This document shows, piece after piece, positions 4,001 through 33,053 of a DNA stretch of 40,250 nt. A model generated the notes under the pieces. The model saw nothing but the letters and a program-made list of their open reading frames with translations, was not told the DNA's origin and made no database searches. The DNA comes from a virus. The translations under genes were made by a program, and so were the position numbers. The DNA is taken from positions 1-40,250 of IMG/VR virus record IMGVR_UViG_3300026473_000347; one strand, given 5' to 3'. Position 1 is the first letter of the stretch. Every line of letters begins with the position of its first letter.

Positions 4001-4181
4001 CGTCTTTGTATCCTAAACTTGTAGCACCTGATTTCTCTTGTGCTGTCATTGATTTACATTTACCTGCAACAATCATCTCACAAGGAGGTGGTGCCATTAC
4101 AGGCCTTTCAATAGTAACAATTTTAGGGCCTGCACAGCCTGCCAGTAAAATTGCTGATAATATTGATACTTTTTTAAGCAT
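3960..4181 (-). CDS. Small predicted lipoprotein
   Basis: A 73-aa protein with a lipoprotein signal (positively charged start, hydrophobic core, lipobox LLAGC around residues 12-16), followed by a short Pro/Ala-rich tail with two further cysteines. I do not recognise the family. No ribosome-binding site is visible; a late-type TAAATA box (4186-4191) lies only 4 nt before the ATG, so the transcript may be leaderless. Its end overlaps the cyclase start by 41 nt. Could be a spanin-like or outer-membrane partner of the curli-like system, but that is a guess. Confidence 0.6.
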   Translation of the reverse strand: MLKKVSILSAILLAGCAGPKIVTIERPVMAPPPCEMIVAGKCKSMTAQEKSGATSLGYKDDEDLPAKAAAIPR

Positions 4182-4185
4182 TCAA

Positions 4186-4192
4186 TATTTAT
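4186..4192 (-). promoter_or_regulatory. Late-type promoter box (ATAAATA) before the lipoprotein gene
   Basis: Minus strand reads GATAAATATT. The distance from the TAAATA core to the ATG is 4 nt, with no Shine-Dalgarno sequence. Confidence 0.45.
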
Positions 4193-4201
4193 CTAGAAAT
4201 T

Positions 4202-4501
4202 TTAGGTTTGATAATCTGGAATTTCTTTAGAACCGTCGCCTGTGCCCAGTATACAGGCGATTTCTGAAGTGAATTGTATAAAAGTCCAGCTTCTTGTTTG
4301 TTTATTGATGAAAAGGCTGTACCTTGTGTCGTCAAGAGCGTCCTTTCCTGTCCAAATAGGAATTTCTTGATAGTTTTCGTTCAGTGCTTCTATGATAGTT
4401 TTAACTTTATCGCAAATTACAGGCTTACGACTTTGAAACACTTGGGCGTTGGCTATAGAGCTTGTAAGGCATAATAGGAACACCAATGCTAATATACGCA
4501 T
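4202..4501 (-). CDS. Exported protein of unknown function
   Basis: A 99-aa protein with a clear Sec signal peptide (MRILALVFLLCLTSSIANA) and a mature domain of about 80 residues. The mature part has two cysteines (ICDKV and IACIL) that could form a disulfide, plus a WTGKDALDDTRYS segment. I recognise no named family. Good ribosome site (AAGGAG, 7 nt before ATG) and a late-type TAAATA box at 4521-4526 overlapping the stop of the upstream giant gene. It sits at the end of the curli-like cassette, so a periplasmic accessory role is possible. Confidence 0.65.
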   Translation of the reverse strand: MRILALVFLLCLTSSIANAQVFQSRKPVICDKVKTIIEALNENYQEIPIWTGKDALDDTRYSLFINKQTRSWTFIQFTSEIACILGTGDGSKEIPDYQT

Positions 4502-4520
4502 GGCCTACTCCTTAAAACTA

Positions 4521-4527
4521 TATTTAT
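4521..4527 (-). promoter_or_regulatory. Late-type promoter box (ATAAATA)
   Basis: Minus-strand AATAAATATAG overlaps the TAA stop of the 806-aa curlin-repeat gene and precedes the exported-protein gene by about 20 nt, with AAGGAG in between. Confidence 0.5.
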
Positions 4528-6944
4528 TGACGCACTACAGTTGTGCATCCTGCTGGATTTGCACAACTTTGAATGATGCTGAAAGATTTGCCGCCGGTTT
4601 GCTGTAAATCAACACTAGCAGGACCGCCTGCGTTAGTTAAATCTATAACAGCATTGTTAGCAGTATTACCAGATTGTGTAACTGTTGCTGAGTTATGATT
4701 GCCTGTTAGAGTAATATCGGCAAAGTGTCCTGCTGAACCAGATTGATTAGTTGTAACAGTATTAATGTCACCAGTTGCACGACTAAACAGTATATGGTTA
4801 CCTGTTCCTGTTTGTGTATGATTCACAGTATTACCATTACCTTGAATTTTAGTTTCAGCGTAGTTTGGTCCGCCTGAAGTATTTGATTGATTAGTAGTAA
4901 CATTGTTTCCCCATCCTGGAATTTCTTGTTTTAAATAGTTGCGGCCGGTTTGTGTATTGTTAACAACGTTATTGTTGCCATCTAATGTAAACTCAATTTT
5001 ATTCTTGTCACCTATTTGTGTAATTGTTACATTATTGTTAGTACCGTATGATTGTGTAATATACAATTCGTTATTATAAGATTGTGTTCCATTATTCCAA
5101 GTATTGACTCTTGCTTGTTTAATATTGATATCTGGAGGTGGCACATAAGAACTTCCGCTACCAATAGTTTCTTGTCCTGTGCCATTGGTCATTGTAATGG
5201 TTCCGCCTTCAATGGATGGTCCTAGAACAACTGTAGTTCCGCTTACATTAACAACACTACTATTAGAATAAACTACTCCTGTAGTATCAATTGTTGCTGA
5301 AGCAATAGTACCTGTTGTAAAAGCTGAGTTTCCAACTTGTTTGACTCCATCTCCATAGTCCCAAAAGAACCTGTGGCCAACACCGCCTTCAACGTTCCAA
5401 TACCATGCTTCTAAATTATAACTTTGTCCGGCAACAACATCCATCCAACCGTTACCGTTGTAGTTGTTACCTATTGCTTGCCATTGGTATGTAGTACTGT
5501 TATTAATAATAGTGCTGCCATTAATACGTAATACAAATCCGTCGTCTGTTTGATTGTAAAAATATAATCTATAAACTGTGCCAGCAGGATGTGCGGCAGT
5601 AATAGGAGCAGTAATTGTTCCAGTATATCTTATAACAGTACCTTCGTTGTATCCTAATAGACTTCCATCGTTATTTGGAAGTCTAGCATTAGTTTGCAAA
5701 AACATTCCGTTGGTAGTTACTCCACTGTTTACAGTATTTCCATAATCAGCTGCGTTGGTACTTGGTACATGGAAACTAAAAGGAATAGCTATACATCCTA
5801 AGAATCCGCAACTATAGTTTCTGTAATCGTATCTCCATACTTGGAAATTTAATCCCTGTTGTACAGTTTGTGTAGTCGTAACAACCGCACCGTTTGATTC
5901 AATGGTAGTTCCTGCTACGCCCGATGTTGTTACTGTATTAATAGGAGTTGTATAAGTTGTTAACGTATTACCAACAATTTTGTTAGTTGTAACTGTCGAA
6001 GCAACTTTAGTTTGATATAGAGATTCTGTACCATTGCTAGTAGTTGTTGTACCGTCACTCCAAGTTGTTGTTGTTACAGGTGTACGATATATTGTTGTTG
6101 TATTACCGTTTACTACTGTTCTTGTTGTATATGTAACTGATGTACCTGTTACAGTTGGTGCTGGAGCTGCACCTGCTGTTGCGCCTGTACCGGCATTTGT
6201 TACTGTCATGGTGTTGTTATAACCACCTGCTGTTCCACTAGTAGTACCACCTGTAGCACTTGGTCCACCACCGTTAGCGTTAGCAACTAGACCAACTGTG
6301 CTAGATCCAGGAACACCATCGCTGTTAACAATACAAGCATTTGATCCACCCCAAGCACCTTGACACGCACCAAAACCCGGACTGCTTGTCCAACCCTGTG
6401 CTGTTATGCCGTTATAAGGACCAAATTCTGGGTTATACAATAAGTTGCCGCCGCCATTAAGTTGTAGTGTAGGAGCACGATACCAAGGACCATAGTCACC
6501 TGCCCAATAGCTTCCATCGATACCGTACATATAAACTTTAGCATAAGCAACAGTTGCGGCTTCTGCTGAAGTTAGTGTTGAACTAATAGTTAACGTTGTC
6601 CAAGGTACTGCTGTGTCAATACATGGGTTACCGCAGACAGCGTTAGGGTTTGGTAAGTTAGCATTATATGTTGAATTTGCACTTTTTACTAACGATCCAC
6701 CGGCAGTATAGAATTCAATCTTTACGTTGGCTGTATCACTTTGGCCAGCACGGCCGCCACCATTGTGTGCTAACACACTCATAGTGAATGTTCCACCTTG
6801 TTGCATATTACTATCAAATACTACATATTGACTAATAGTCGTAGTAACGTAAGCAGTTGCAATAGCATTGTATTCTACTGCTTGGCTATGTGCGCTTAGG
6901 CAAAATGATAAACCAAATAAAAATTGAAGTACACGTTTTATCAT
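4524..6944 (-). CDS. Giant secreted protein: PA14-like domain plus C-terminal curlin repeats
   Basis: 806 residues with a Sec signal (about 1-22). The N-terminal region resembles a beta-sandwich (VFDSNMQQGGTFTMSV). A Thr/Val-rich low-complexity linker spans about 225-370. A PA14-like module covers about 400-545 (YFYNQTDDGFVLRING, then YNLEAWYWN). The C-terminal ~170 residues are curlin-type repeats built from N-x-V/A-x-x-x-Q-T/S-G units (NTVNHTQTGTGN, SATVTQSGNTAN). It probably leaves the cell through the CsgG pore and polymerises as amyloid or coats the cell or virion. ATGA overlap with the FecR-domain gene (6941-6944) shows operon membership. Four cysteines cluster in N-terminal and extreme C-terminal parts. 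PA14 would suggest carbohydrate binding. Confidence 0.8.
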   Translation of the reverse strand: MIKRVLQFLFGLSFCLSAHSQAVEYNAIATAYVTTTISQYVVFDSNMQQGGTFTMSVLAHNGGGRAGQSDTANVKIEFYTAGGSLVKSANSTYNANLPNPNAVCGNPCIDTAVPWTTLTISSTLTSAEAATVAYAKVYMYGIDGSYWAGDYGPWYRAPTLQLNGGGNLLYNPEFGPYNGITAQGWTSSPGFGACQGAWGGSNACIVNSDGVPGSSTVGLVANANGGGPSATGGTTSGTAGGYNNTMTVTNAGTGATAGAAPAPTVTGTSVTYTTRTVVNGNTTTIYRTPVTTTTWSDGTTTTSNGTESLYQTKVASTVTTNKIVGNTLTTYTTPINTVTTSGVAGTTIESNGAVVTTTQTVQQGLNFQVWRYDYRNYSCGFLGCIAIPFSFHVPSTNAADYGNTVNSGVTTNGMFLQTNARLPNNDGSLLGYNEGTVIRYTGTITAPITAAHPAGTVYRLYFYNQTDDGFVLRINGSTIINNSTTYQWQAIGNNYNGNGWMDVVAGQSYNLEAWYWNVEGGVGHRFFWDYGDGVKQVGNSAFTTGTIASATIDTTGVVYSNSSVVNVSGTTVVLGPSIEGGTITMTNGTGQETIGSGSSYVPPPDINIKQARVNTWNNGTQSYNNELYITQSYGTNNNVTITQIGDKNKIEFTLDGNNNVVNNTQTGRNYLKQEIPGWGNNVTTNQSNTSGGPNYAETKIQGNGNTVNHTQTGTGNHILFSRATGDINTVTTNQSGSAGHFADITLTGNHNSATVTQSGNTANNAVIDLTNAGGPASVDLQQTGGKSFSIIQSCANPAGCTTVVRQ

Positions 6945-8050
6945 CTTTGTATTAAGGTAATAGTTGTATTACCTCCTTGATTAACACGATTTTTAAATTC
7001 TAAACTACCTTGTGTTTGATAAATCGTACTGTTTTGTGTTAATGGCGTTTTGACACATTGAATATCAGCGCCGTTATCTCGACATAATTCAACACTTAGA
7101 TCGTCTTTGTAAGCAACGATTCCGCTAGATTTTTTATAATCAGGTAATACAGGATCTACAGGATCTAAAAACTTTTGATCTAGTATGTTGCCAATAATGT
7201 CAAACAAACTAGCTAGAAAATTATTGTCTAAAAAATTCTTTGCTAGTTTGTCGTCATACATTTGATTTGCCTGCATGTCTAAATAATTCTCTAAACCTTT
7301 TTCTTTCAAAAAATCAAAATCAAGAGCGTTAAATGTTCGACGTTGTTCATCTACTGCACGTTTGACTTCTGCTGGCGGACTTACAATTAACAAATTACTA
7401 ATAGCCATTTCGCTTAGTTGTAATACCTTAGGAGGAGTAGGTGGCTGTGTTCTACTCATAACTTTAGTAACTTGGAATGGCTGATTGAGTATTACAGTTC
7501 CAACGTCGTTAGTAACTTCAATACTGCCGGTTTTACAGTTTGATTCAATATCTTTTACTGTACGGGTTGGACGATCATTAGGGCAACTAGGTAAAAGAAT
7601 AATAGTGCTTTCGCCAAGTTCATCAACTGTGGCTGTAAAATCTGTTCCACGTACTGCTACAGTTGCGCTAGGTGTGTTTAGTGCAACATTTTGTGGACTG
7701 TTTTTTGCAATTTGTCCAGATGCGTATCGTACTGTGCCAAGCGCAATCTTAGCACCTAATTTGCCACTTTTGCTCTTAGGGTCATAGACAAAATCATCAA
7801 TGACTAGTTTACTATTTTCGTTTACTTGAACTTTAGTATCGTCTTCAAACGTTATCCCTACTTTCCCTTGAGCTGTTTTGATGGCATCGTTCATCTCTAC
7901 TCCAGTCCCTTTCGACGCCGTTAGTGTCGAATTCTGTCTCTGGATACTTGGTGGAGTATTTATAAGTTCCGTCACTTTGCCTATCGCCGCGTTTGTGTTC
8001 GACGATATACCTAGCAACGGAACGCATAGTATTGCCATCCATAATTTCAT
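6941..8050 (-). CDS. FecR-domain periplasmic protein
   Basis: 369 residues with signal peptide (about 1-22), then a FecR-type beta domain at about 40-165. Hallmarks are the GVEMNDAIKTAQGKVGITFEDDTKVQVNEN-type pattern and the TPSATVAVRGTDFT motif. The C-terminal half is helical (about 200-300) and ends in a beta-rich tail with two cysteines. In curli-like phage cassettes a FecR-domain gene accompanies csgG and curlin genes (from memory of pelagimyophage genomes). Role unknown: possibly periplasmic chaperone or peptidoglycan-proximal scaffold for the amyloid subunits. Good ribosome site (GAGGG). ATGA overlap with the downstream gene; 9 nt from the upstream curlin gene. Confidence 0.8.
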   Translation of the reverse strand: MKLWMAILCVPLLGISSNTNAAIGKVTELINTPPSIQRQNSTLTASKGTGVEMNDAIKTAQGKVGITFEDDTKVQVNENSKLVIDDFVYDPKSKSGKLGAKIALGTVRYASGQIAKNSPQNVALNTPSATVAVRGTDFTATVDELGESTIILLPSCPNDRPTRTVKDIESNCKTGSIEVTNDVGTVILNQPFQVTKVMSRTQPPTPPKVLQLSEMAISNLLIVSPPAEVKRAVDEQRRTFNALDFDFLKEKGLENYLDMQANQMYDDKLAKNFLDNNFLASLFDIIGNILDQKFLDPVDPVLPDYKKSSGIVAYKDDLSVELCRDNGADIQCVKTPLTQNSTIYQTQGSLEFKNRVNQGGNTTITLIQR

Positions 8051-8059
8051 GGAGCCCTC

Positions 8060-9034
8060 TTAGTTTTTCTGTAAAATAGTATAAGTGTTACTACTTCCCG
8101 ATACGGCAAGATTTGTTAAGTTACTTACAGTACCTTGTTGTGTAATACCAATAGTATTAGTGCTACCTGTTACTGATAGTGTTGCATGATGACCAGTTCC
8201 ACTGCCGCCTGTTTGCGACAATGTTATACCGTTTCCACTTCCAACTACAGTGATACTAGCATAGTGATCATATAATCCAGTTTGAGTTACATCAGTTGTG
8301 TTACCTGAGCCAGTGATATCAACAATGGCTTGCGCTCCGTTAACACCATATGCACTTTGAATAATACTAGTTGTATTAGTTGCTCCTGATGTAGTTAAAC
8401 TAACTTGACCTTTATTTCCAGTCATATTAAGTGTAGTTGTGTTACCACCGCCACCTGTCTGACTAACAGTTGCTACGGTATCATCTGCGTTAATTGTACC
8501 AGTGAATGTATTATTAGCACCGCCACTTGTTCCTACTGTTAATTGATTACTAGTTCCAGTCATATTAAGTGTTGTAGTTGCACCACCACCACTTTGAATG
8601 AAACTAACTACGTTACCACTGGCTGTGCCTGTTCCATTATTATTAATATTGATGTAACCTGTGTTGCCACCACCACTTACTTGGTAATTTAAGTTTACAC
8701 CGATATTAGCATAGTTAGATACTGTTCCACCTTGAGTTGAATTAACACCCAAAGACAGTACGTTGGTTGCTCCAGTTTGTTCGATATTAATTGTCTGAGC
8801 AGAGCCAGTTAATTTAGCCGGATCAGTAGTGCCTCCAGCAGAACCGTTAGTTAAAATTCCTTTTACTTTATTTCCAGAACCATCTTGTGTCATAGTAATG
8901 GTACTGTTGTCGCCAGACTGATCAATATAAATGCTGTTGTCAGCCGCCATGCCCAATGTTGTCATTGCAGACAACACCAGAATTGTGAGTAATTTTCTCG
9001 ACAACCCACCAGCGCCTTTTATACTTTTGTCCAT
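8060..9034 (-). CDS. Curlin-repeat (CsgA/B-like) secreted amyloid subunit
   Basis: 324 residues: Sec signal with a slightly long n-region (cleavage near GMAADN, about residue 31), then almost entirely curlin repeats. The repeat pattern is roughly S/N-x-I/V-x-I-x-Q-x-G-x-x-N with spacing near 22-25 residues (IYIDQSGDN, INIEQTGATN, TDVTQTGLYD, ITLSQTGGSG, IGITQQGTVS). Mature sequence has no cysteine or tryptophan and is rich in Gly, Thr, Asn and Ser, as expected of amyloid subunits. It is about twice the length of E. coli CsgA. A 65-nt gap separates it from csgG; the ribosome site is weak (AGAAAAAG). Confidence 0.87.
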   Translation of the reverse strand: MDKSIKGAGGLSRKLLTILVLSAMTTLGMAADNSIYIDQSGDNSTITMTQDGSGNKVKGILTNGSAGGTTDPAKLTGSAQTINIEQTGATNVLSLGVNSTQGGTVSNYANIGVNLNYQVSGGGNTGYININNNGTGTASGNVVSFIQSGGGATTTLNMTGTSNQLTVGTSGGANNTFTGTINADDTVATVSQTGGGGNTTTLNMTGNKGQVSLTTSGATNTTSIIQSAYGVNGAQAIVDITGSGNTTDVTQTGLYDHYASITVVGSGNGITLSQTGGSGTGHHATLSVTGSTNTIGITQQGTVSNLTNLAVSGSSNTYTILQKN

Positions 9035-9099
9035 CTTTTTCTAATGTTGGTTTATCGATTTCGCCAACAAGTTCCTTGGTCAGTGACCTGTTATAGTTA

Positions 9100-10296
9100 T
9101 TACTGCTTTACTTCTTCAATTTTTTCAATTCGGATCCATCCTCCTCGATTAGTTCCGTCTTCTGTTTTTACTCTTACCCAACCCTCACTCCCGGGTTGTA
9201 ATACACTTAATGTTGTGCCTTTTGCTACCCACCATTTTCTTGTACTTTTTTCATCTTGTTCTGAGTGTAAGAAAGCATTGTCTTTTAATTGTCTATTGCC
9301 AAATAAGGCTACGGGTTCTTTCTTTACTTCGGTGGTGGCACTGGGTGCGGCTTCTGTTTTGGTTTCGGATGAGGTTTGCGGTTGAACCACGACATCTGTT
9401 TTCTCCTCTTCTTTAACTGGTTGTTTAATTTCGCTACTAATTACCGGAGCAGAAGATACAGGTGCAGGAGTAATTGTAACTGGAGGGAGATCTTTCACCT
9501 CTGGTTTATAATCCCAAATTCCTTTACGCTGTCCTTCTTTAACTAACTCAACAACTGCCATTTCTACTGTTGCCTTTACTGCATAAGTTCCTGGTTCGTT
9601 AATTGTTAAACCAGCTTCTGCTTCAAATGCCTTTGTGCCTGCGTCAAAAAATCTTAGTGCAGATACGCTGTCTGCTGAACTCAAGATAGTTTTTTGAACA
9701 GTAACAGTAGCTAAAACTTTACCTGTGTTTACGCTGACTGCTCGTAAACTGACTGTCACTGTGTCTGTTGACCATTGTGTTTGTTTTCCAATACCAAAAA
9801 TACGTTGGCCGATGCCGCCGCTTGTAGTACTTTGATCGTAACCTACAATTCCGCCTTCTAAAATAATACCAGCAAACTGCATTGGCATTAATGGTTTAGC
9901 ATCTTTACCTTCATATGCTTCGCGCATTTGACGAATAATTAAACGTTCTTTAGTTAAGTTATCAATACCTACACGTTCAACAACATCGAACCATTGTCCT
10001 TTACCTACGTTTTGTAGAGCTTGAATTAAAAACGTTTCTGCGCCTTGTGTAACTGCTGTGCTTAAACTAGCTATGTTAGCTTGAGGGCGGCGTTGTCCAG
10101 TTTTATCTTGGAAACTGTAAACTGCTACACTAATTGGTTTACCAGTAGCAGGACCTGGAATAGTGTCAAATTCTTTTTTGACATTAGTCATTTGTCCTGT
10201 TACTTCAGGTGTCTTATCTAATGCTCCTGTGCTTTGCATAACAGCACAACCAGAAAGCATACTTAAAATTGCTAGGGCTATAAATGTCTTTTTCAT
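9100..10296 (-). CDS. csgG: CsgG-like outer-membrane secretion channel with C-terminal SH3-like domain
   Basis: Forms the nonameric outer-membrane pore that exports curli subunits. Lipoprotein signal with lipobox MLSGC (cysteine near residue 17). Residues about 45-270 match CsgG along the whole length: ISVAVYSFQDKTGQ, LSTAVTQGAE, FDVVERVGIDNL, GGIVGYD, SGGIGQRIFGIG and the KTILSS segment. Beyond the normal CsgG end there is a charged Pro/Val/Lys/Glu linker (about 275-320) and an SH3-like domain (about 320-395: FLHSEQ, WWVAKGTTLSVL, GWVRVKTEDG, GGWIRIE). That extension is absent from E. coli CsgG and would sit in the periplasm, perhaps holding peptidoglycan. Four nt downstream of the CsgF-like gene. 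Confidence 0.93.
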   Translation of the reverse strand: MKKTFIALAILSMLSGCAVMQSTGALDKTPEVTGQMTNVKKEFDTIPGPATGKPISVAVYSFQDKTGQRRPQANIASLSTAVTQGAETFLIQALQNVGKGQWFDVVERVGIDNLTKERLIIRQMREAYEGKDAKPLMPMQFAGIILEGGIVGYDQSTTSGGIGQRIFGIGKQTQWSTDTVTVSLRAVSVNTGKVLATVTVQKTILSSADSVSALRFFDAGTKAFEAEAGLTINEPGTYAVKATVEMAVVELVKEGQRKGIWDYKPEVKDLPPVTITPAPVSSAPVISSEIKQPVKEEEKTDVVVQPQTSSETKTEAAPSATTEVKKEPVALFGNRQLKDNAFLHSEQDEKSTRKWWVAKGTTLSVLQPGSEGWVRVKTEDGTNRGGWIRIEKIEEVKQ

Positions 10297-10299
10297 GAT

Positions 10300-10845
10300 T
10301 TAATTCCCTGGCATTTGGAATGAGCTTAGTGGCACATAAACACAACTCATACCAGTGTCTGTACACGAAGCTGAACTTGGGTTAGTTGCAGTAGGATCTG
10401 CAATTTTTAACATAATGCAATAGCCATATGCTGTAGAGCAATTAGCATCATTTGCACTACTAACTCTTCCCCAACTAATATAGTTGCCTTGGAAGTCAAT
10501 ATTTCCTGAGCAATTTGTGTTTGTTGATGACGTGCAATTATTATTTGCAAACATAGCAGTAGCTACGTTTTGACTTATTTGTGCATAGATACGTGATTCT
10601 AAGTTGCTAACAAACTTATATAAATTTGTATTCTTTTTGTCTGCAGCAGCTTTATCAATTTCAGCCTGTAGTTTATCAGCACGTTCTTTTTCACGTGTTC
10701 TTTCTTGATTTTCTACAGTTAAAACATGACTACTATAACCTACACCATTAAAAGCAGGACTCTTAAATTGATAATCGCTAAGAGGTGCTGCTGTTGCAAT
10801 TAAAGGCAATAGTAGTGTGATTATTCCTAATTTTGTTTTGGACAT
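10300..10845 (-). CDS. CsgF-like curli assembly factor
   Basis: 181 residues with a Sec signal (about 1-19). The mature start LSDYQFKSPAFNG resembles the CsgF N-terminus (FQFRNPNFGG), which in E. coli plugs into the CsgG pore. A helical charged stretch (about 45-75) and FVSNLESRIYAQIS match the CsgF helix that precedes the C-terminal beta domain. The C-terminal domain has extra cysteines (six in the mature protein) not present in E. coli CsgF, possibly making disulfides. Assignment rests on the N-terminal motif, helix pattern and position directly before csgG. Good ribosome site GGGAG; TAAATATAAT box upstream at about 10868-10876. Confidence 0.75.
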   Translation of the reverse strand: MSKTKLGIITLLLPLIATAAPLSDYQFKSPAFNGVGYSSHVLTVENQERTREKERADKLQAEIDKAAADKKNTNLYKFVSNLESRIYAQISQNVATAMFANNNCTSSTNTNCSGNIDFQGNYISWGRVSSANDANCSTAYGYCIMLKIADPTATNPSSASCTDTGMSCVYVPLSSFQMPGN

Positions 10846-14561: not shown

Positions 14562-16460
14562 TTAGTCTTTTTTATCAACCTCTTTGAACTCCGCATCTAC
14601 GGTTTGTTCGCCCTGTGGTTGAGCAGGGTTTTGAGCGGCAGATTCAGCGGCTTGTTTCTTAGCCATAACTGGACCTGCTGCTTCAAAAAGTTTACCAACA
14701 GCTTCGTTAATCTTTTCTTTGTCATCACTAGACATAGCTTCATTCAACGATGTCTTGGCTGTTTCGTAAGCTGACTTTTCTTCGTCAGTTAATTGATCCT
14801 TGTAAGTTTCAAAGTCTTTATTAACTGAATGGCTTGCAGCTTCTGCTTGATTTTTTGCATCGATAAGTTCACGAGCTTTTTTATCTGATTCTGCATTTTC
14901 TTCTGCTTCACGAACCATACGTTGGATCTCAGCCTCGGATAGTCCACTGTCTGATTTAATAGTGATTTTATTTTCTTTACCTGTGCTTTTATCTTTAGCA
15001 CTGATATTCATAATACCGTTGGCGTCAATATCAAATGTAACTTCGATTTGTGGCATTCCACGTGGAGCAGGATTAATACCATCTAACTTAAACTCGCCTA
15101 GCATCTTGTTATACTTAAACAGTTCACGTTCACCTTGTGCTACCTTGATATCTACAGCAGGCTGATTGTCTTCTGCTGTAGAAAACACTTGACTGGCTTT
15201 AGTAGGAATAGTTGTGTTCTTTTGAATTAACTTAGTGAACACACCGCCCATTGTTTCAATACCAAGTGACAATGGAGTAACGTCTAGTAATAGAACATCA
15301 GTCTTGTCGCCTGCTAGAACTGCACCTTGGATGGCGGCACCAGCGGCAACTGCTTCGTCTGGGTTAACGTCCTTACGTGGAGCCTTACCAAACAATTTTT
15401 CAACTGCTTCTTGTACCTTAGGCATACGTGTTTGACCACCAACAAGGATAACCTCGTCAATGTCGCTTGCAGATACATTAGCATCTTTCATAGCAACTTT
15501 ACAAGGGTCAATTGAACGCTCAATTAGTTTCTCTACCATTGCTTCAAATTTAGCACGGGTAAGTTTGACATTTAAATGCTTAGGGCCACTTGCATCAGCG
15601 GTAATATATGGCAAGTTGATGTCTGTACTTGCAGAGCTAGACAATTCAATCTTGGCTTTTTCTGCGGCATCTTTTAGACGCTGTAGAGCCAACATGTCTT
15701 TCTTAAGATCAACACCGTTTTCTTTCTTGAATTCTTCAACTAAGTGATCCATGATAGCCTGGTCAAAGTCTTCACCGCCTAGGAATGTATCACCGTTTGT
15801 TGACAACACTTCAATCTGTTTGTCACCGTCAATGTTAGCAATTTCGATAATACTAATATCAAATGTACCACCACCTAAGTCATACACAGCAATCTTGCGA
15901 TCCTTCTTAGATTCTTTATCAACACCATAAGCAAGTGCGGCCGCTGTTGGTTCGTTGATAATACGCAACACTTCTAAGCCAGCAATCTTACCTGCGTCTT
16001 TAGTTGCTTGACGTTGCTGGTCGTTAAAATATGCTGGAACTGTAATAACTGCTTTAGTGACTGATTCGCCTAGATAGTCTTCGGCAGTCTTTTTCATTTT
16101 GCGTAGAACTTCAGCACTGATTTGTGGAGGTGCTAGTTTTTCATTATTGGCTTCTACCCATGCATCACCGTTTTCTGCACGGATGATAGTGTATGGCATT
16201 AGACCAATGTCTTTTTGCACAGCCTGTTCTTCAAACTTACGTCCGATTAAACGCTTGGCTGCGTAAATTGTATTCTTGGGATTTGTGACTGCTTGACGTT
16301 TTGCTGTAGCACCAACAAGAATTTCATCTTGTGTGTAAGCAACAATTGATGGTGTTGTTCTTGCACCTTCGCTGTTTTCAATTACTTTAGCTTTACCGTT
16401 TTCTAGTACTGCTACACAGCTATTTGTTGTACCTAAGTCGATACCTATGATTTTGCTCAT
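14562..16460 (-). CDS. dnaK: DnaK, full-length bacterial-type Hsp70 chaperone
   Basis: ATP-driven chaperone. 632 residues, normal bacterial length. ATPase motifs: [13 protein letters not shown] at the start, [13 protein letters not shown] (about 195), [13 protein letters not shown] (about 335). Substrate-binding domain from about 385 ([15 protein letters not shown], then [12 protein letters not shown]), then the helical lid and a C-terminal [11 protein letters not shown] tail matching the DnaJ-linked C-terminus of proteobacterial Dna[17 protein letters not shown] and other stretches look beta/gammaproteobacterial. It starts the chaperone-bilin operon from a late-type promoter (TATAAATA) with a ROSE-like leader. 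No dnaJ or grpE lies in the window, so it would rely on host or distant partners. Confidence 0.97.
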
Positions 16461-17681: not shown

Positions 17682-18075
17682 CATCATCCTCTTGGTTGTC
17701 AGAAAATTGTTCTACGATTTGGTCCAAATCCCAAATTCTATTTTTTGAAATTAGGTTATATGGAGTTGTCTCGTCTTTAGTTATATAGTGTGCGTTGGGT
17801 TGTGCCAGCAGAAATGTGACAAACTTTTGAGTAATTACATCGCAGTTGTCGATATCTACAATAACTACATCTACTTGTTGTGCAACGCTTAACATCCAAC
17901 TAATATCAGTTTCTTGTTCATCAAACATAAAAATGTTTAAATCATCAATGCTTTTACTTAAAATAGTTTGAAACTGTTGTTTAATGTAGTTTGAAGGCTT
18001 AACTAATAGATAACTCAAATTCATATTGAACAGTTTATCTGGTGGTGTTATTAGAGTTATTTTTCCTAAGTTCAT
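17665..18075 (-). CDS. Conserved-type phage protein, unknown function
   Basis: 136 residues from ATG 18075 ([14 protein letters not shown]). A longer in-frame start would overlap the preceding ORF far more deeply, so the internal ATG is preferred. The fold looks alpha/beta: strand KITLITPP, helix [10 protein letters not shown], strands NIFMF and VDVVIVDID, and [14 protein letters not shown]. The tail is very acidic ([10 protein letters not shown]). From memory, similar proteins occur in T4-like marine phages without a known role. Overlaps the upstream ORF by 41 nt and bS21 by 17 nt, suggesting coupled translation. Confidence 0.65.
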
Positions 18076-18307
18076 ATATTCTATCTGCAAATTCTTGTAG
18101 TCGTTCTGATGAATAATTAGCAAACTTTGGTCCTCGAGCTTTTGTTTCTTCAACAAATTCATACAAGGATGGGTCTGTAAATTTATCAATTATCAAATCT
18201 TGAAAACGATCAACATCATAGATTTTGTACAATTCGTCCTTGGGTCTTAGTCTACTTGCATTTATTCTTGACCAAAGTGTTCCGTCACTTTGTTCTGCAT
18301 TTTGCAC
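18035..18307 (-). CDS. Unknown protein; possibly the -1 frame C-terminal part of the upstream membrane protein
   Basis: 90 residues if begun at GTG 18307 (with AGGG close upstream): helical, TLWSRINASRLRPKDELYKIYD then LYEFVEETKARG. The -1 frame relative to the upstream gene is open without a stop from the A9 run at 18371-18379 into this ORF, so it could be the C-terminal domain of that large membrane protein, joined by frameshifting or split by a homopolymer error. As a stand-alone protein it has no recognised family. Conserved-looking charged composition supports real coding. Confidence 0.6.
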   Translation of the reverse strand: MQNAEQSDGTLWSRINASRLRPKDELYKIYDVDRFQDLIIDKFTDPSLYEFVEETKARGPKFANYSSERLQEFADRIYELRKNNSNNTTR

Positions 18308-18315
18308 ATACCCTG

Positions 18316-19566
18316 CTACGATCTGTCCTTGATCTGTATCTTGCCCGCTTCGTCCTTGGTCATATACGTCTTTTTTTTTGATTCTTCTGTTTCTTCTGCC
18401 TTAGGAAAGTCTGGTTCAATTGTTGCCTTTGTTTCTTCTTCAACTGCCTTTTCAGCTTCCTCAATCATCTTGTTCCATTGTTCTAACGGAACTGGTGTTT
18501 CTTCCTGTTTAACTTCTTCAATGCGTTCTTGTACACGCTCTTCTGCTTGTTTAAGAAAGTCGGGTTCAAGATCTATAGCTGGTTGCTCCGGCGCTGTTAT
18601 ATCACCTCCTGTGGCAGTCGACGGTGTTTCGCTAGGAATTTCTACAGGTTTCTGTACTGATGGGAATGGCCATAACGAACTGAATGGTGGCCAGTCAAAG
18701 TTTCTTTCTTTTGCCTCTTCTATTTCTTTCTTTTCTTCTTCTGTAGGTGGTTCACCTACATCTCTATCCAAGTCTGCTATTGTAGGATAGCTGTCTTGTG
18801 CTTTTTGTTGTCTGTACCAGCCAAAGGTCATTTGTGCAGCTAACAACATAATAACCGCTAATGGATCAAACACAATAACAATAAGAATAATAATCCAAGT
18901 TACAGCACGTTCTAAGAAGTTTTCATCTGCTCCTTTGTCACCGTAGATAAACTTGGCTATGTATTTTATTGGACCAACTTCTGCTTCCACCTTACGCACT
19001 TCTGCGGCAATGGGTGCCCGTTCTTCACTAAGTTGGGCAATAAGTTTCTGTTCGGCTGTAATCTCAGAAAGTAATCTAGTGCGTTCTTTGGCCTGCCCTC
19101 GACGTAACGCAACTGCTTTGTCGGCACCTTTTTCATCTTGACTTCGACCCATAACTTGGTCCACAGCCTCATCCATTTGTTTGAGTGCTTTGCGATTTGC
19201 ATCGATGTTTTCCTTTGCTACTTTAATTTTTTCATCGTAGATAGCAATCTTACTTTGAACATCGCCACTTACTAAGTTTTGGTCGTTGTGTGCTTTAGAT
19301 AAGAATCCAAAGATACCCATTGATGTAATTAGCATGAGAACCATAACTGCGGTAATCATGTAATATTTCATGAAACGTGGAGCACGTTCCCAATTGGCTT
19401 TTAACCAACTGGCGCAGACTAACTTGCCTACTTCCAGTGCCGATCCCATTATGATAATCGGAATGGCGGCGGCAGAAAATATTGCGGTAAGACCTACTAC
19501 TGAGTAATAGATCGCTACCGCGGATATTGTTAAGCCAGTTAGGAGTAGTAACCAAGCTAGTATCAT
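18316..19566 (-). CDS. Large membrane protein with coiled coil
   Basis: 416 residues. Two N-terminal transmembrane helices (about 3-25 and 28-50), one at 68-90, a long coiled coil (about 100-205) with Lys/Glu heptads, a fourth helix pair (about 222-250), then a Pro/Glu-rich acidic tail. From memory, proteins of this architecture are conserved in T4-like marine phages, function unknown. Possible roles: inner-membrane anchor for replication or host takeover. Near its end an A9 run (18371-18379) reads A AAA AAG in frame; the -1 frame continues into the next ORF. Zero-frame continuation adds TYMTKDEAGKIQIKDRS before TAG. Confidence 0.75.
   Translation of the reverse strand: MILAWLLLLTGLTISAVAIYYSVVGLTAIFSAAAIPIIIMGSALEVGKLVCASWLKANWERAPRFMKYYMITAVMVLMLITSMGIFGFLSKAHNDQNLVSGDVQSKIAIYDEKIKVAKENIDANRKALKQMDEAVDQVMGRSQDEKGADKAVALRRGQAKERTRLLSEITAEQKLIAQLSEERAPIAAEVRKVEAEVGPIKYIAKFIYGDKGADENFLERAVTWIIILIVIVFDPLAVIMLLAAQMTFGWYRQQKAQDSYPTIADLDRDVGEPPTEEEKKEIEEAKERNFDWPPFSSLWPFPSVQKPVEIPSETPSTATGGDITAPEQPAIDLEPDFLKQAEERVQERIEEVKQEETPVPLEQWNKMIEEAEKAVEEETKATIEPDFPKAEETEESKKKTYMTKDEAGKIQIKDRS
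18370..18379 (-). other. A9 homopolymer / possible slippery site
   Basis: Minus strand TCAAAAAAAAAG with zero-frame codons AAA AAG. Only two A/T runs this long exist in the window, and both lie where two ORFs are in -1 relation. Frameshifting or a collapsed A10 are both possible. Confidence 0.5.
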
Positions 19567-28717: not shown

Positions 28718-30928
28718 TTAATGACTAGCTGTAAACGAGTATGATAGTTCGCTTAGTGTTTCACCAACTAGTGCCTGTTTGTATCTCAAAGCAATACTGG
28801 ACGGAACATCACTCAAACCAGACAGAGCTTCACCATATTGATTTAATATTATCACCGAGAACTCCAATTTCAAAGCGTCATCTTGTGATAAACCAACTAT
28901 GCTAAAATCATCTGATAATTGAGCTTGTGTTGAATGTAGTGTTGCACTCTTATCAACATCAACTGTAAATGAAAGGGTACCAGTTCTGGTAAAATCATTT
29001 GCAGTACTCTTATATTTGTATCGAACATCGTAACTAACTGACTTAGAAGGTGTGCCGTTTATAGTCGATGGCACTGGGAAAACAGCAACCAGTGACCAAC
29101 TAGGCATGTATCCAACAAGTGCTTTCTTAGTTCCATATGAAGAATAAGAAACTTCACCTGTAATTTCTGGGATATAAGGCACCATTGTTAAGGATCCTAC
29201 ACTAGTAGGAGTAACTGTTGGTTTGTATGATCCAAAGAATCCTGTTAACCCAGCACTTGTGCTAAGTGGTCTAGCTGAAACTCCAACGTCAAACGCATCT
29301 AGATAGTTGTTTACAATTTTAAAATGTGATGTATCTACTATTTCTTTGATATAGTATGTTGTGCCAGCTACTACTCCGCCAGATGTTCCATTGAATGTAA
29401 TTGCAGCACCAACTATCATTTGTGCTGTTGTTGTAGATGTTTCAAATGCATTTGATACTGTGCTCGAACCAACAATGTCAATAGTAGTTAAGTCGCCTGG
29501 ATTATAAATGTTGCTAATTACTATGCTATTAAAATTAGTAAATGAAGTAACGTACTGTGTAACAACAGAAATAGTAGTTGCACTATCGTAATCTTCTTTT
29601 AGTGTGCCTTGAATGTTGGTTACATTTTGTTTTACAAGACTTCCTTTTGTTGCTGTGATTGGTTGATTTAATTCCAAATCGACAGTAAATGCCTTTGAAA
29701 TTAAAAAGTCTTGTCTATCTGATTGATCATTAACACTTGAGTTTCCAACTGAATCAAAGTATATCTGAGGGTACTCTGGGAAATAAACTCCAGCACCATT
29801 GTTGCCAACGTTTGTAAATTTACAATCTCTTGTTGAATTGCCTGAACCTCTTTCAACAACAAACCCTTGGCGCTTTATATCCTCAAACTTACAGGCAATT
29901 AATGAAGTTTCTCTTGGGCCGTATTGTTCACCCACTGTAGTTCCGTCAGCTGCTTCTCCTAAGTACACACCGTGTCTTAGATCAAAAAAGCGACAGTCTT
30001 CAAAGGTATTGTTTAAAATATCTTGTTTGGCCCATACACCATAACTAAATCCCGAAACAACTACATTTCTAAAAATATTATTTGCACATGTAACAATTGA
30101 TGATACAGCGTTTAAAGAGATTCCTTTGCTGTCTGGATCGTATGTATTACCCCAACTTCCGGCAACTATAATATTTTCAAATGTGCTATCTCTTACAGCA
30201 TCAAGTTTTAAACCGGTATGATCAGTTGCAGTACATACAAAAGAAATTCCTCTTATAGCAATACTTCGTGGTTGTGTATTTCCAAGAGTATTGCCAATTG
30301 CGCTTGGGTTTCCTATTGTTGAGTCGTCATTAATAAATTGAACAGCAGACCCTGCAATACCTTCGTAACGAATAATTGTTTTATTACGGCCAGCACCTAT
30401 AAGAGTAGCGTAACTTGGAATGTATAGTGTTTGTGTTGTTTTGTAAATACCAGGTGCTAGTTCTAAAATAACTCTTGCTCTTGTACCATCGGCTGTGTCG
30501 CTAGAAGCAGCTGTTGTTGGGTTTAGGAACAACTGATCAATAGCACGTTGTAGTGCTTCTGTGTCATCTGTTGTGCCATCTGCAACTGCACCAAAGTCTG
30601 CTACTGTAACTCGATCATCTAAACGATCTTGTGTTTGTCTTGATATTGGATCGTTACTGGTAGGTCCTGTTTGAATAGCAGGATCGTTTGATTTGTAAAT
30701 ATGTTGTATTAGATTTAATAAGTTACCTTGAACAGTTAAATCTCTTTCTGTAAGGATCTTAGTATTTCCTACGGCAGGACTACCTTCTGCGACAGATCCA
30801 TTTCCAATGTATAATTCTTGGGTATCAAGCGACCACGCAAGTTCACCTGATGCTAACTGTGGTAAACCTGTACCGCTTAATGATTTTCCTCGACGTATTT
30901 GAATACGGCTGATTTGCACAACTGCCAT
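28718..30928 (-). CDS. Tail fibre / tailspike with pectate-lyase fold
   Basis: 736 residues. N-terminal phage adhesin module RIQIRRGKSLSGTGLPQLASGELAWS followed by LYIGNG (tropism-determinant or hyaluronidase-type start common in T4-like marine phages). At about 100-420 a pectate-lyase-3 beta-helix: VTVADFGAVADGTTDDTEALQRAI, then repeated N-x-F-x-x-x beta-helix rungs (NIFRNVVVSG, NTFEDCRFFD, STRDCKFTNV). The C-terminal ~300 residues are beta-rich and presumably bind the receptor. Host polysaccharide recognition or cleavage is likely. Late promoter and strong ribosome site upstream. Confidence 0.87.
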   Translation of the reverse strand: MAVVQISRIQIRRGKSLSGTGLPQLASGELAWSLDTQELYIGNGSVAEGSPAVGNTKILTERDLTVQGNLLNLIQHIYKSNDPAIQTGPTSNDPISRQTQDRLDDRVTVADFGAVADGTTDDTEALQRAIDQLFLNPTTAASSDTADGTRARVILELAPGIYKTTQTLYIPSYATLIGAGRNKTIIRYEGIAGSAVQFINDDSTIGNPSAIGNTLGNTQPRSIAIRGISFVCTATDHTGLKLDAVRDSTFENIIVAGSWGNTYDPDSKGISLNAVSSIVTCANNIFRNVVVSGFSYGVWAKQDILNNTFEDCRFFDLRHGVYLGEAADGTTVGEQYGPRETSLIACKFEDIKRQGFVVERGSGNSTRDCKFTNVGNNGAGVYFPEYPQIYFDSVGNSSVNDQSDRQDFLISKAFTVDLELNQPITATKGSLVKQNVTNIQGTLKEDYDSATTISVVTQYVTSFTNFNSIVISNIYNPGDLTTIDIVGSSTVSNAFETSTTTAQMIVGAAITFNGTSGGVVAGTTYYIKEIVDTSHFKIVNNYLDAFDVGVSARPLSTSAGLTGFFGSYKPTVTPTSVGSLTMVPYIPEITGEVSYSSYGTKKALVGYMPSWSLVAVFPVPSTINGTPSKSVSYDVRYKYKSTANDFTRTGTLSFTVDVDKSATLHSTQAQLSDDFSIVGLSQDDALKLEFSVIILNQYGEALSGLSDVPSSIALRYKQALVGETLSELSYSFTASH

Positions 30929-30949: not shown

Positions 30950-30956
30950 TATTTAT
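30950..30956 (-). promoter_or_regulatory. Late-type promoter box of the tail fibre
   Basis: Minus strand GATAAATATCCTATA, 21 nt before the ATG with GAGG in between; shares ATAAATATCCTATA with the box at 24315. Confidence 0.6.
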
Positions 30957-31675
30957 CAGTTCTGTTTATAGTACTGCTCCACCCTATCCCACCAGCGTTT
31001 TTCCCAGTAGTCAAATTCTTCTGCCCTTAATATAAACTCCTGATATTTAGGCTCTTCTGTCATAATTAACTGCTCATTTAATTTAGGGCTTACGCACATT
31101 AGCACAACACCTTTACGTATGTTTGTACCATGTACTTCATTGTGTGCTAGAGCATAAGCAGTTAATTGTAAGTAGTAATCCTCAATCCACTCTTGTTTTT
31201 TAGGTTTATTAGTTTGTTTGTAATCTAGGATTGATTCTTCATTTAAGTGTAAACCGCAACCATCAGTAGTTCCCGCATATAATCTGGGAAAGTATAACGG
31301 AACTTCTACACCCCATACTTCATTAACGTTAACTAATCCTTCGCTAATGATGTGTTTGGCCATTGCGTGGCTTTGTTTGCTATAAGGATTAGAACCTGGG
31401 TCATTAAGTACACCGTGTGTAATGTAATCTTCTAGAAACTTGTGCATTCTAGTGCCGCGGCCTGCAGCTTCTGTTACAATTTCTTGTGCTTTCTTTTCAC
31501 CAACACTTTTTTTCCAACGCATTAGTGCATCGATTTTTTCTTGTGGTTTAGTCTTATCTAGAATTGTTGTAACTGATGGAACTTTGCTTCCATCTGGAGT
31601 AGCGTAAAGTCTTTTGCCCTCTACGCTTTCTCTGCTGATTGGTGTGTAATTAAATTTTTGAGTTAAGAGAGTCAT
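30956..31675 (-). CDS. PD-(D/E)XK exonuclease (Cas4/RecB-like fold)
   Basis: 239 residues. Motifs in order: GRGTRMHKFLE (His78), YAGTTDGCG (Asp138), ILDYKQT (Asp151, Lys153) and YYLQLTAYA (Gln170), the standard arrangement of RecB/Cas4-type nucleases. Four-cysteine Fe-S ligands of Cas4 are not seen, so it is a plain exonuclease. Probably degrades host DNA or processes recombination ends. Its sigma70 promoter has the -10 exactly 6 nt from the ATG and no ribosome site, so leaderless translation is predicted. Confidence 0.83.
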   Translation of the reverse strand: MTLLTQKFNYTPISRESVEGKRLYATPDGSKVPSVTTILDKTKPQEKIDALMRWKKSVGEKKAQEIVTEAAGRGTRMHKFLEDYITHGVLNDPGSNPYSKQSHAMAKHIISEGLVNVNEVWGVEVPLYFPRLYAGTTDGCGLHLNEESILDYKQTNKPKKQEWIEDYYLQLTAYALAHNEVHGTNIRKGVVLMCVSPKLNEQLIMTEEPKYQEFILRAEEFDYWEKRWWDRVEQYYKQN

Positions 31676-31713: not shown

Positions 31714-32040
31714 TTATTTGCCTAATTTAGTTGCTCGTTTAGCCATTTGACTTACTACACCAGAATCTTCTTTACCGCCAACTTCTGGTTTTTCTGTCTT
31801 ATCTTGTGTTTTGACAGTAACTCCGTTGCCGTCAAATTTGAAAACTAAGTTATGTAAAACTTGTTGTTCTGGAGCAAGTCCTTCTTCCTCTTCCCAACGA
31901 GCTGCAAACGCTTCATAAGAAATTGGGATGCCCATCTTTTGAAGGGCACCCCAAGTTAGTGGTGCATGTGTATTTAAATTGTCGCCTGCGCTTTGAGTTG
32001 TGAATAGAGTCCTAACTAAAGGATCTATTGTTTCATTTAC
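31714..32040 (-). CDS. -1 frame extension of the upstream structural gene (108 aa)
   Basis: Open frame from the slippery A9 site to a stop at 31714. A separate start would have to be the ATG at 31935, which loses 35 residues of protein-like sequence (ETIDPLVRTLFTTQSAGD, then HAPLTWGALQKMGI), and no start codon exists in that stretch. The simplest reading is that it is the C-terminal part of a 446-aa fusion made by -1 frameshifting at A AAA AAG. Content: SYEAFAARWEEEEG acidic helix, LVFKFDGNGVTV strands, Lys/Ala-rich tail. Family unknown. Confidence 0.6.
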   Translation of the reverse strand, partial: VNETIDPLVRTLFTTQSAGDNLNTHAPLTWGALQKMGIPISYEAFAARWEEEEGLAPEQQVLHNLVFKFDGNGVTVKTQDKTEKPEVGGKEDSGVVSQMAKRATKLGK

Positions 32041-32046
32041 TTTTTT
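32003..32046 (-). promoter_or_regulatory. Programmed -1 frameshift signal (slippery site plus stem-loop)
   Basis: A AAA AAG (32046-32040), the E. coli dnaX slippery heptamer, in frame and immediately followed by the zero-frame TAA. Ten nt downstream lies a stem: AATAGATCCT (32029-32020), 6-nt loop, AGGA-C-TCTATT (32013-32003), 10 bp with one bulged C. Slippage gives Lys-Lys then Val and continues 108 codons. Confidence 0.6.
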
Positions 32047-33053
32047 TTTGAGTTAAGTAATAGAGCTAGGCGTCGACTGTAGTCAACGCTTTCACGTTTT
32101 TCTCTGCCTACTTCTGGTGCTGGAGGAGTTGGTAACTCTTCTGCTCCCATTTCGCCTTCTCCGCCTGGCATTGGAGGAACTGCTCCTGCTTCAGCGCCTG
32201 GCATAGCTGTTGCGCCTGTTGGTGCGCCCATAGTAGATACTTCGCCGCCTGATACGATCGATAGTGCGTTTGACAAGCCTTGACGTGATGTTTCTAGAGC
32301 TGTATAAATTGCTTCTAGTGCAGGTTTAACTGCTTCTTGATATGATTGGGCAACGTCGCTGCCTTGTGTTTCTCTTATAGAGTCTAATAATTCTAATAGC
32401 TGCTCTGCTTTCATTGCCGCTACATCTTCTAGCCAACCAGTGATACGGTCAACCATGTCCTTAGTGGCCATAATAGTTTCAGCTTTATCTTCTTCGCCTT
32501 CTAGTAAAATCCAGCTGGCTTGTGATTCGTTTAAGTCATAGCGTAATGCTAGTTCTGCCTTTAGTTCTTCGCGGTCTACACCTTCGCCTAAATTAATCTG
32601 TGCAATGGTCTTATTGATCCAAGTTTCTGGAACCGATAGTTCTTTTGCACGAGCACGTACAGTATTAACAATGTAACCTTCGTCTGTCTTTTTTTCTTTC
32701 TTGCCCATAGCTTTTTTAATAGCCTTATCTTTGGAACCCATGTACTCGTCTTTTCCAGATTCTACTTCACCGTCACCGTCGTAGTCTTTATCAGCTTTGT
32801 CTTCACGCTCCATGATTTCTTGATTAATGCAGTCAAGCATCAAGCGTGTTTTTTGATACTGTGGGCTTTCAAGCACAGAATCAAAAGCTTCTGAAAGCTC
32901 CATTTGACTTAGTCTTGTGCGAAGTTTATTACGTGCATCTTCAAGTTGCACATCTGTAAACTGTTCGAAGTTGATTTTGTAACCAAACTTCTTAGCTAAG
33001 TTCTCGTTGAGTACTTTAGCTGTAATAGGTTTTTGAAATTCTCTAATTTGCAT
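32037..33053 (-). CDS. Core/structural-type phage protein (frameshift donor)
   Basis: 338 residues. Helical N-terminal part (MQIREFQKPITAKVLNENLAKKFGY), an EF-hand-like acidic loop DKDYDGDGEVESGKDEYMGSKD at about 92-113, a helical middle, then a Gly/Pro/Ala-rich flexible linker (about 265-320) and a short basic end NSKKK. It resembles T4-like marine phage internal or structural proteins (from memory). The zero frame ends at TAA right after the A9 run; -1 slippage would extend it to about 446 aa. Exact late promoter TATAAATA (33088-33081) and AGGA ribosome site upstream. Confidence 0.65.
   Translation of the reverse strand: MQIREFQKPITAKVLNENLAKKFGYKINFEQFTDVQLEDARNKLRTRLSQMELSEAFDSVLESPQYQKTRLMLDCINQEIMEREDKADKDYDGDGEVESGKDEYMGSKDKAIKKAMGKKEKKTDEGYIVNTVRARAKELSVPETWINKTIAQINLGEGVDREELKAELALRYDLNESQASWILLEGEEDKAETIMATKDMVDRITGWLEDVAAMKAEQLLELLDSIRETQGSDVAQSYQEAVKPALEAIYTALETSRQGLSNALSIVSGGEVSTMGAPTGATAMPGAEAGAVPPMPGGEGEMGAEELPTPPAPEVGREKRESVDYSRRLALLLNSKKK

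Follow-up and report, generated by a model that had tools for sequence, protein, structure and literature searches.

A conserved slippery A9 run and a selected downstream hairpin at a probable programmed -1 frameshift in a virion-type gene of T4-related freshwater phages

An open reading frame that stops directly behind a run of lysine codons, while the overlapping -1 frame stays open far beyond the stop, raises the question whether the ribosome always ends there or sometimes continues in the second frame. We investigated such a locus in a 40,250-base IMG/VR virus record (this whole stretch is called the window), in which the genes in question are located on the minus strand. A preliminary description had proposed a probable programmed -1 frameshift that fuses two structural ORFs. 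The 338-aa ORF it described, ending NSKKK-stop on A AAA AAG TAA, is present on the minus strand as claimed, and its 3' end encodes ...LLNSKKK (sense AAC TCA AAA AAA AAG TAA). The -1 frame is likewise open for 108 codons and lacks a start in the first 35, as described, the first ATG/GTG/TTG being codon 36. Its product runs VNETIDPLVRTLF...ATKLGK (VNETIDPLVRTLFTTQSAGDNLNTHAPLTWGALQKMGIPISYEAFAARWEEEEG...KLGK), and slippage yields a protein of 338+108 = 446 aa. The features of the locus are as follows.

32037..33053, minus strand: upstream (zero-frame) ORF, 338 aa, alpha-helical, homologue of the RaK2-like 'virion structural protein'
32041..32049, minus strand: slippery run A9 (TCA AAA AAA AAG), A9 or A10 in 82/82 sequences
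32040..32046, minus strand: heptamer A_AAA_AAG, read in the sequence and in relatives
32037..32039, minus strand: zero-frame stop TAA, immediately 3' of the heptamer, TAA in 82/82 relatives
31714..32040, minus strand: -1 frame extension, 108 aa, open frame with no usable start in the first 35 codons
32003..32029, minus strand: hairpin of 10 bp with one bulge, spacer 10 nt, at the family-wide downstream hairpin position
31923..31954, minus strand: second hairpin TTGGGGTGCCC-N10-GGGCATCCCAA, 85 nt after the heptamer, kept in the window's own clade
30956..31675, minus strand: PDDEXK exonuclease, directly 3' of the frameshift gene, a syntenic anchor

The 338-aa protein matches phrog_14154 of PHROGs, 'virion structural protein', with an E value of 5.9e-9. 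AlphaFold predicts it to be all helix at moderate confidence, and a fold search with this weak-confidence model returned several uncharacterised phage proteins. Its neighbours in the window are small unknown genes, the exonuclease, a tail-spike-like gene and ribonucleotide reductase (RNR). The tail-spike-like protein (736 aa, 28718..30928, minus strand) combines a pectate-lyase-like domain with an Mtd_N-like N terminus. At about 32730..32800 (minus strand) the 338-aa protein carries an EF-hand-like insert, DKDYDGDGEVESGKDEYMGSKDKAIKKAMGK, where many relatives have a CxxC...CxC segment; its occurrence in unrelated proteins of marine viruses (L162, L163) gives it the look of an exchangeable module.

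Conservation of the slippery run and of the -1 frame

Relatives were collected by IMG/VR scans with the 338-aa protein and with a divergent member, giving 82 distinct sequences covering the site, and by a third IMG/VR scan with the -1 domain profile as query, giving 21 further contigs. The members form 40 clusters at 80% identity and 19 at 70%. Aligning relatives had been proposed as a check on the heptamer, and it is kept in all 82 distinct sequences: the site reads TCA or CCA, then AAA AAA, then AAG (68), AAA (7) or AAC (7), then TAA, with A_AAA_AAG (or its AAA or AAC form) correctly phased where the zero-frame ORF ends. All of them also have 100–122 open codons in the -1 frame, encoding the same domain. 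Among the contigs of the third scan, 19/21 have A9G and an open -1 frame. Over the three scans this amounts to 101 of 103 site-covering sequences that keep A9 or A10 and an open -1 frame with the same ~105-aa domain. One contig (L246) begins 17 bases before the match and its run reads A8; in another (L208, about 3045) an internal deletion takes out the slip region, which is either a natural variant or an assembly fault. Relatives with an uninterrupted frame and no slippery run, named in the preliminary description as evidence against frameshifting, were not encountered: none of the IMG/VR relatives of the 338-aa gene reads uninterrupted across this site, and every intact site keeps the run.

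Homopolymer runs are error-prone, and a sequencing or assembly error, or a decaying pseudogene, could likewise leave an interrupted frame. We regard this as practically out of the question, as 101/103 sequences from many metagenomes are concordant and both frames are conserved. Contigs from other metagenomes (L002–L004) that are 100% identical to the window over 338 aa carry A9 too, so the run is not the error of a single assembly. Sequencing error was rejected on the strength of the 101 concordant relatives, and since about 100 related contigs retain both the run and the added domain, we take the programmed frameshift to be real and not a sequencing slip.

A tblastn search of INPHARED returned no homologues, only the short element DYDGDG-K-ESGKDEY-GSKDKAIKKAMGK, which is common to non-homologous marine phage proteins, and a relative of the frameshift gene was not found in GTDB genomes. 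The frameshift gene is absent from Methylophilales phage Melnitz and Pelagibacter phage HTVC008M, which have a different gene in common with the window. An adenylate-cyclase-like gene within 1916..10845 (minus strand) is common to the window and these two phages; judged by position in Melnitz and HTVC008M, the ORFs beside it are possibly counterparts of curli secretion genes (CsgF, CsgG, curlin repeats, FecR). As a T4-type portal is present in the large relatives L023 and L015, phages of this family are T4-related.

The codon usage around the run is strongly restricted. The codon before the A run ends in A in all 82 sequences; in every Ser case it is TCA, compared with a TCA share of 32% among Ser codons, and where it encodes Pro it reads CCA. 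For the first two lysines only AAA is used, whereas AAG accounts for 32% of Lys codons. Only 4 of the 116 conserved columns in the upstream gene are single-codon columns. In 653 kb of loci we counted 56 runs of at least nine A's (51 A9, 4 A10, 1 A11), and 55 of these are the 55 slip sites. Both the TCA/CCA and AAA codon bias and the rarity of A9 indicate that the run is selected as nucleotides over nine A's, beyond the need of the heptamer. The A before the first lysine gives a second, overlapping site, A_AAA_AAA.

The impression that the -1 codons look like real protein is borne out by a conserved domain, by a position-3 substitution bias and by a predicted fold. Alignment A1 (51 members) contains the invariant residues P6, L11, F44, A99 and A102 and 15 near-invariant columns. 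Within the part of the frame that has no start codon, the differences separating close members are distributed over -1-frame codon positions 3:1:2 as 161:102:25. AlphaFold models the -1 product with a pLDDT of 79 (residues 30–70 >90), ordered for about 80 residues and ending in a disordered tail. The added domain is predicted to be small and compact, consisting of helices and a beta hairpin on a flexible tail; a fold search with it gave nothing significant in PDB or BFVD.

The -1 frame might also be a separate gene, translated from a non-standard start codon or by reinitiation after UAA, as in RaK2, CBB, GAP32, SCTP-2, Atu_ph07 and Deifobo a small protein starts soon after the upstream stop. 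For the freshwater family we consider this very improbable: the codon following the junction varies freely (AAT, ATT, ATA, AGT, ACT, ATG), and many members are without ATG/GTG/TTG for tens of codons while the slip run is invariant. In L044, L047, L064, L065 and L071 no such codon occurs until codons 62–107, and a separate start is excluded for these five by the lack of an early start codon together with the variable junction codon. An independent start or reinitiation was rejected since there is no consistent start among members.

RNA structure downstream of the run

The preliminary description had placed a 10-bp stem-loop with one bulge ten nucleotides after the heptamer. The window contains exactly this hairpin, with a stability of -8.5 kcal/mol for 45 nt (z -2.4), but it is not the canonical stem of the family: it belongs to a shifted kind, the 3' arm being displaced in comparison to the canonical stem. 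Across 55 members the 60 nt after the TAA showed a mean z of -3.3, compared with -0.1 to -0.5 in six control windows. RNAalifold found no consensus over all stems together, as the stems are shifted among members, and structure was therefore assessed by synonymous recoding and by pair counting. In the recoding test the -1 protein was kept fixed and the native 51-nt segment was compared with 300 recodings per member. The native segment was more stable than its synonymous recodings (p<0.05) in 47/53 members and beat all 300 in 36/53, with a native mean z of -4.0 and controls between -0.9 and +0.5. The downstream hairpin is thus under selection independent of coding.

The typical stem of the family, GTAGAnCCCTTAGT / ACTAAGGGnTCTAC, has a covariation score above all 500 shuffles and above all slid registers, and both-side changes occur at pairs 15:32, 19:28, 20:27 and 8:39. 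The stem is shifted in some members (L009, L044, L055), and the divergent clade L242–L247 keeps A9G with a different perfect stem, GATGCGGAT/ATCCGCATC, as read from its sequences. Whether the stem-loop is kept in relatives has a twofold answer: its position is under selection, but the stems are shifted, and in the clade to which the window belongs the structure is weaker (mean z -1.9). The second hairpin (31923..31954) is strong only in this clade, with a mean z of -3.5 and two pairs with both-side changes, and is perhaps a distal stimulator.

The spacer between heptamer and hairpin measures 8–16 nt in 44/57 members and reaches about 23–27 in a few. If the spacer exceeds 10 nt, UAA would be in the A site or close to it when the ribosome reaches the hairpin, which makes slippage beside a slow stop plausible. 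The presence of UAA in 82/82 sequences is weak evidence for this, since UAA is the usual stop in the window (32/39 genes). A Shine-Dalgarno-like stimulator upstream of the run was searched for in 57 members and found in one. This scarcity, the frequently long spacer and the weak hairpin of the window's clade speak against the ribosomal model.

Virion homologues in RaK2-like jumbo phages

Profile A2 detected homologues of the upstream protein in the whole genomes of Atu_ph07, SCTP-2 and RaK2 with E values of 3.6e-8 to 1.8e-5, and in a small set (JNE01, Deifobo, Atu_ph07, SCTP-2, RaK2) with E values of 9e-13 to 3e-8. Named homologues are CBB_298, RaK2 ORF135 and GAP32_293. In these RaK2-like phages a separate gene of 104–128 aa lies directly 3' of the upstream homologue, with its own ATG in RaK2, CBB, GAP32, SCTP-2 and Atu_ph07 and a GTG in Deifobo. 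It is followed by the same exonuclease as in the window, except in Atu_ph07; Deifobo has one extra small gene in between. NrdA is located close by in RaK2, Deifobo, JNE01, CBB and GAP32. The RaK2-like pairs (CBB_298 + CBB_299, RaK2 ORF135 + ORF136, GAP32_293 + 294) share with the window gene a homologous upstream protein and the gene order upstream protein, small protein, exonuclease, NrdA, but they are two genes with their own starts and without a slip run.

The adjacent pair of CBB, gp298 and gp299, is annotated as virion structural protein in both cases. Mass spectrometry of CBB particles detected CBB_298 with 10 unique peptides and CBB_299 with 2 (Table 4 in PMC5259590); that these are gp298 and gp299 we infer from the matching annotations. 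In size, in position and in a C-terminal MAxxA (MA..A) motif these small proteins are similar to the -1 domain. Comparing the two by hhalign gave P 0.002 at low probability with 8 sequences and nothing usable with 3; homology of the RaK2-like small proteins to the -1 domain is suggestive only.

Since the two proteins are encoded by separate adjacent genes in RaK2-like phages and both occur in CBB virions, the frameshift probably fuses two virion proteins. The term 'structural' used in the preliminary description is supported for the upstream half, which is homologous to virion proteins of jumbo phages; for the downstream half the support comes mainly from its position. By the same comparison the protein would be located in the virion of the window's phage, and it is likely that two adjacent virion genes turned into one frameshift gene.

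A second A9 site and the mechanism of slippage

The window contains only one other A9/T9 run, which is located 55 nt before the end of a 416-aa gene.

18316..19566, minus strand: second recoded gene, 416-aa membrane protein with a TC-A9-G cassette, unrelated to the first gene
18371..18379, minus strand: second slippery run A9 (TCA AAA AAA AAG), A9 in 65/67 and A8 in 2/67
18035..18370, minus strand: -1 frame extension of the second gene, 111 aa, open frame with its own conserved domain

In a sample of the window and 80 relatives fetched for this site, the run is in the right phase in 67 (65 with A9, 2 with A8 and TCT, heptamer intact). Among 48 distinct members, the -1 domain is 95 aa or longer in 41 and about 40 aa long in the other 7, and no start is found within the first 40 codons of the -1 frame in 30/40. 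As the zero-frame tail is conserved too (KKKTYMxKDxxGxIQxKxR), about 50 nt are read in two frames. In L310 (3001-4500), a natural variant or an assembly fault, A10 at this site leads to a continuous frame. A continuous frame with the motif YVQN.EQ..SIW.RI or QQNAEQN..LW.RI is also found in L298, L318, L333, L334, L338 and L341; that continuous-frame relatives carry the same motif indicates that the -1 product is a normal part of the protein. Judged from these sequences, the second site appears to be an independent programmed -1 site that is kept in most of the 80 relatives. No RNA structure was found 3' of the second run (mean z about 0). Elsewhere in the window a phage-encoded DnaK-like chaperone (14562..16460, minus strand) shows up to about 68–70% identity to other phage-record proteins.

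Three large relatives (813 kb) contain eight runs of at least nine A's; 6/8 are the two slip sites, which are the sole such runs in two of the three genomes. No A9 recoding cassette other than these two was thus seen there, and of the two only the first is accompanied by a hairpin. It is a tentative and rather doubtful idea that the lineage keeps exactly two TC-A9-G cassettes, purges other A9 runs and makes a coordinated, possibly infection-tuned short/long pair; if true, the tuning might come about, for instance, through an influence of the phage on lysine tRNA or on RNA polymerase.

A run of nine A's may also be slippery for RNA polymerase. The polymerase would stutter on A9, some mRNAs would carry A10 (or A7), and ordinary translation would yield the 446 aa. 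A_AAA_AAC is a poor slippage site in E. coli, and the third codon is AAA or AAC in 14/82 sequences; the overlapping A_AAA_AAA remains there. The homopolymer of about nine or more A/T that transcriptional slippage calls for is kept in relatives, as A9 or A10 in 82/82. This constraint spans more than the heptamer requires, with the first two lysines never AAG and with AAC and AAA third codons tolerated, and the second gene keeps its A9 without a hairpin. Bacterial RNA polymerase is known to slip on runs of nine A's (PMC5009743). However, the overlapping A_AAA_AAA accounts for the nine-A constraint ribosomally as well, two A8 members of the second gene have the heptamer intact, and the strongly selected hairpin is not expected to help a polymerase slip upstream of it. 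Since only the ribosomal model explains the hairpin, it is favoured on this point. Transcriptional slippage at A9 is a serious competitor that could contribute alongside ribosomal slippage or be the mechanism, but we consider it improbable as the explanation of the long product.

In E. coli, A_AAA_AAG shifts more readily than any other heptamer of its type, and dnaX uses it naturally (PMC5009743). The combination of this shift-prone heptamer and a selected hairpin 3' of it is best explained by -1 ribosomal frameshifting. The slip run, the -1 frame and its domain are conserved and the hairpin is selected, which supports the proposed fusion of two ORFs; that ribosomes and not RNA polymerase slip, and in what ratio short and long forms arise, we infer. 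The gene is probably a programmed -1 frameshift gene that makes a short virion protein and a 446-aa fusion by ribosomal slippage. Most ribosomes would terminate at the UAA past the lysine run and release the helical 338-aa virion protein, while a fraction would re-pair one base back on A_AAA_AAG (tRNA-Lys, AAG to AAA), aided by the downstream hairpin and possibly by a slow UAA in the A site. The slipped ribosomes would translate 108 more codons to give the fusion. A short form and a minority long form in a fixed ratio would probably replace the separate translation of two virion proteins, as RaK2-like jumbo phages encode the corresponding small protein in a neighbouring gene of its own. Of the earlier expectation of about 446 aa in a defined ratio, the length holds for the predicted product, and the ratio is what this model would predict.

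The arrangement resembles E. coli dnaX (tau/gamma) in its A_AAA_AAG heptamer and downstream stem-loop. In contrast to E. coli dnaX, it lies in a virion-type gene of a phage, the frameshift yields the long form, the run is A9 and not A6, the spacer is longer and an upstream SD element is lacking. In dnaX of some bacteria a stop codon directly follows the slip site (PMC5009743), and these variants with a zero-frame stop right after the site have the same arrangement as the window gene. Nine A's in the coding strand are shared with Thermus dnaX and other A9 transcriptional slippage genes; unlike in Thermus dnaX, the long product needs the shift and, in the first gene, a selected hairpin lies downstream.

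As in lambda gpG/gpGT and other tail-assembly chaperones, a minor -1 product adds a C-terminal domain to a morphogenesis protein. Unlike the lambda gene, the window gene is not beside a tape-measure gene, its neighbours being an exonuclease and ribonucleotide reductase. It is not in a tail operon immediately 5' of the tape-measure gene, where a tail chaperone would be located, and its context is similar in distant relatives; no homology to tail chaperones was found. T4-like phages would make their tail chaperones without frameshifting, going by the title of a paper cited in PMC10885494. A tail-assembly chaperone was rejected by gene neighbourhood and synteny, and the likening to tail-assembly and capsid genes in the preliminary description did not hold, as the gene is neither a capsid nor a tail-chaperone gene and has no tape-measure neighbour.

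The mechanism as such is already known, and the most unusual part is the shared cassette in two unrelated genes. The gene family and its frameshift were not found in the open-access literature searched. Standard ORF calling truncates the protein and loses the first part of the C-terminal domain. The twin A9 cassettes, with and without a hairpin, are a natural pair for telling slippage by ribosomes from slippage by RNA polymerase, and a simple list of the rare A9 runs of a phage genome may reveal other recoded genes. The well-known phage frameshifts are mostly found in tail chaperones and a few capsid genes; here a deeply conserved frameshift is located in a different virion-type gene of T4-related freshwater jumbo (giant) phages, and the comparison points to the merging of two neighbouring genes into a single one with a frameshift.
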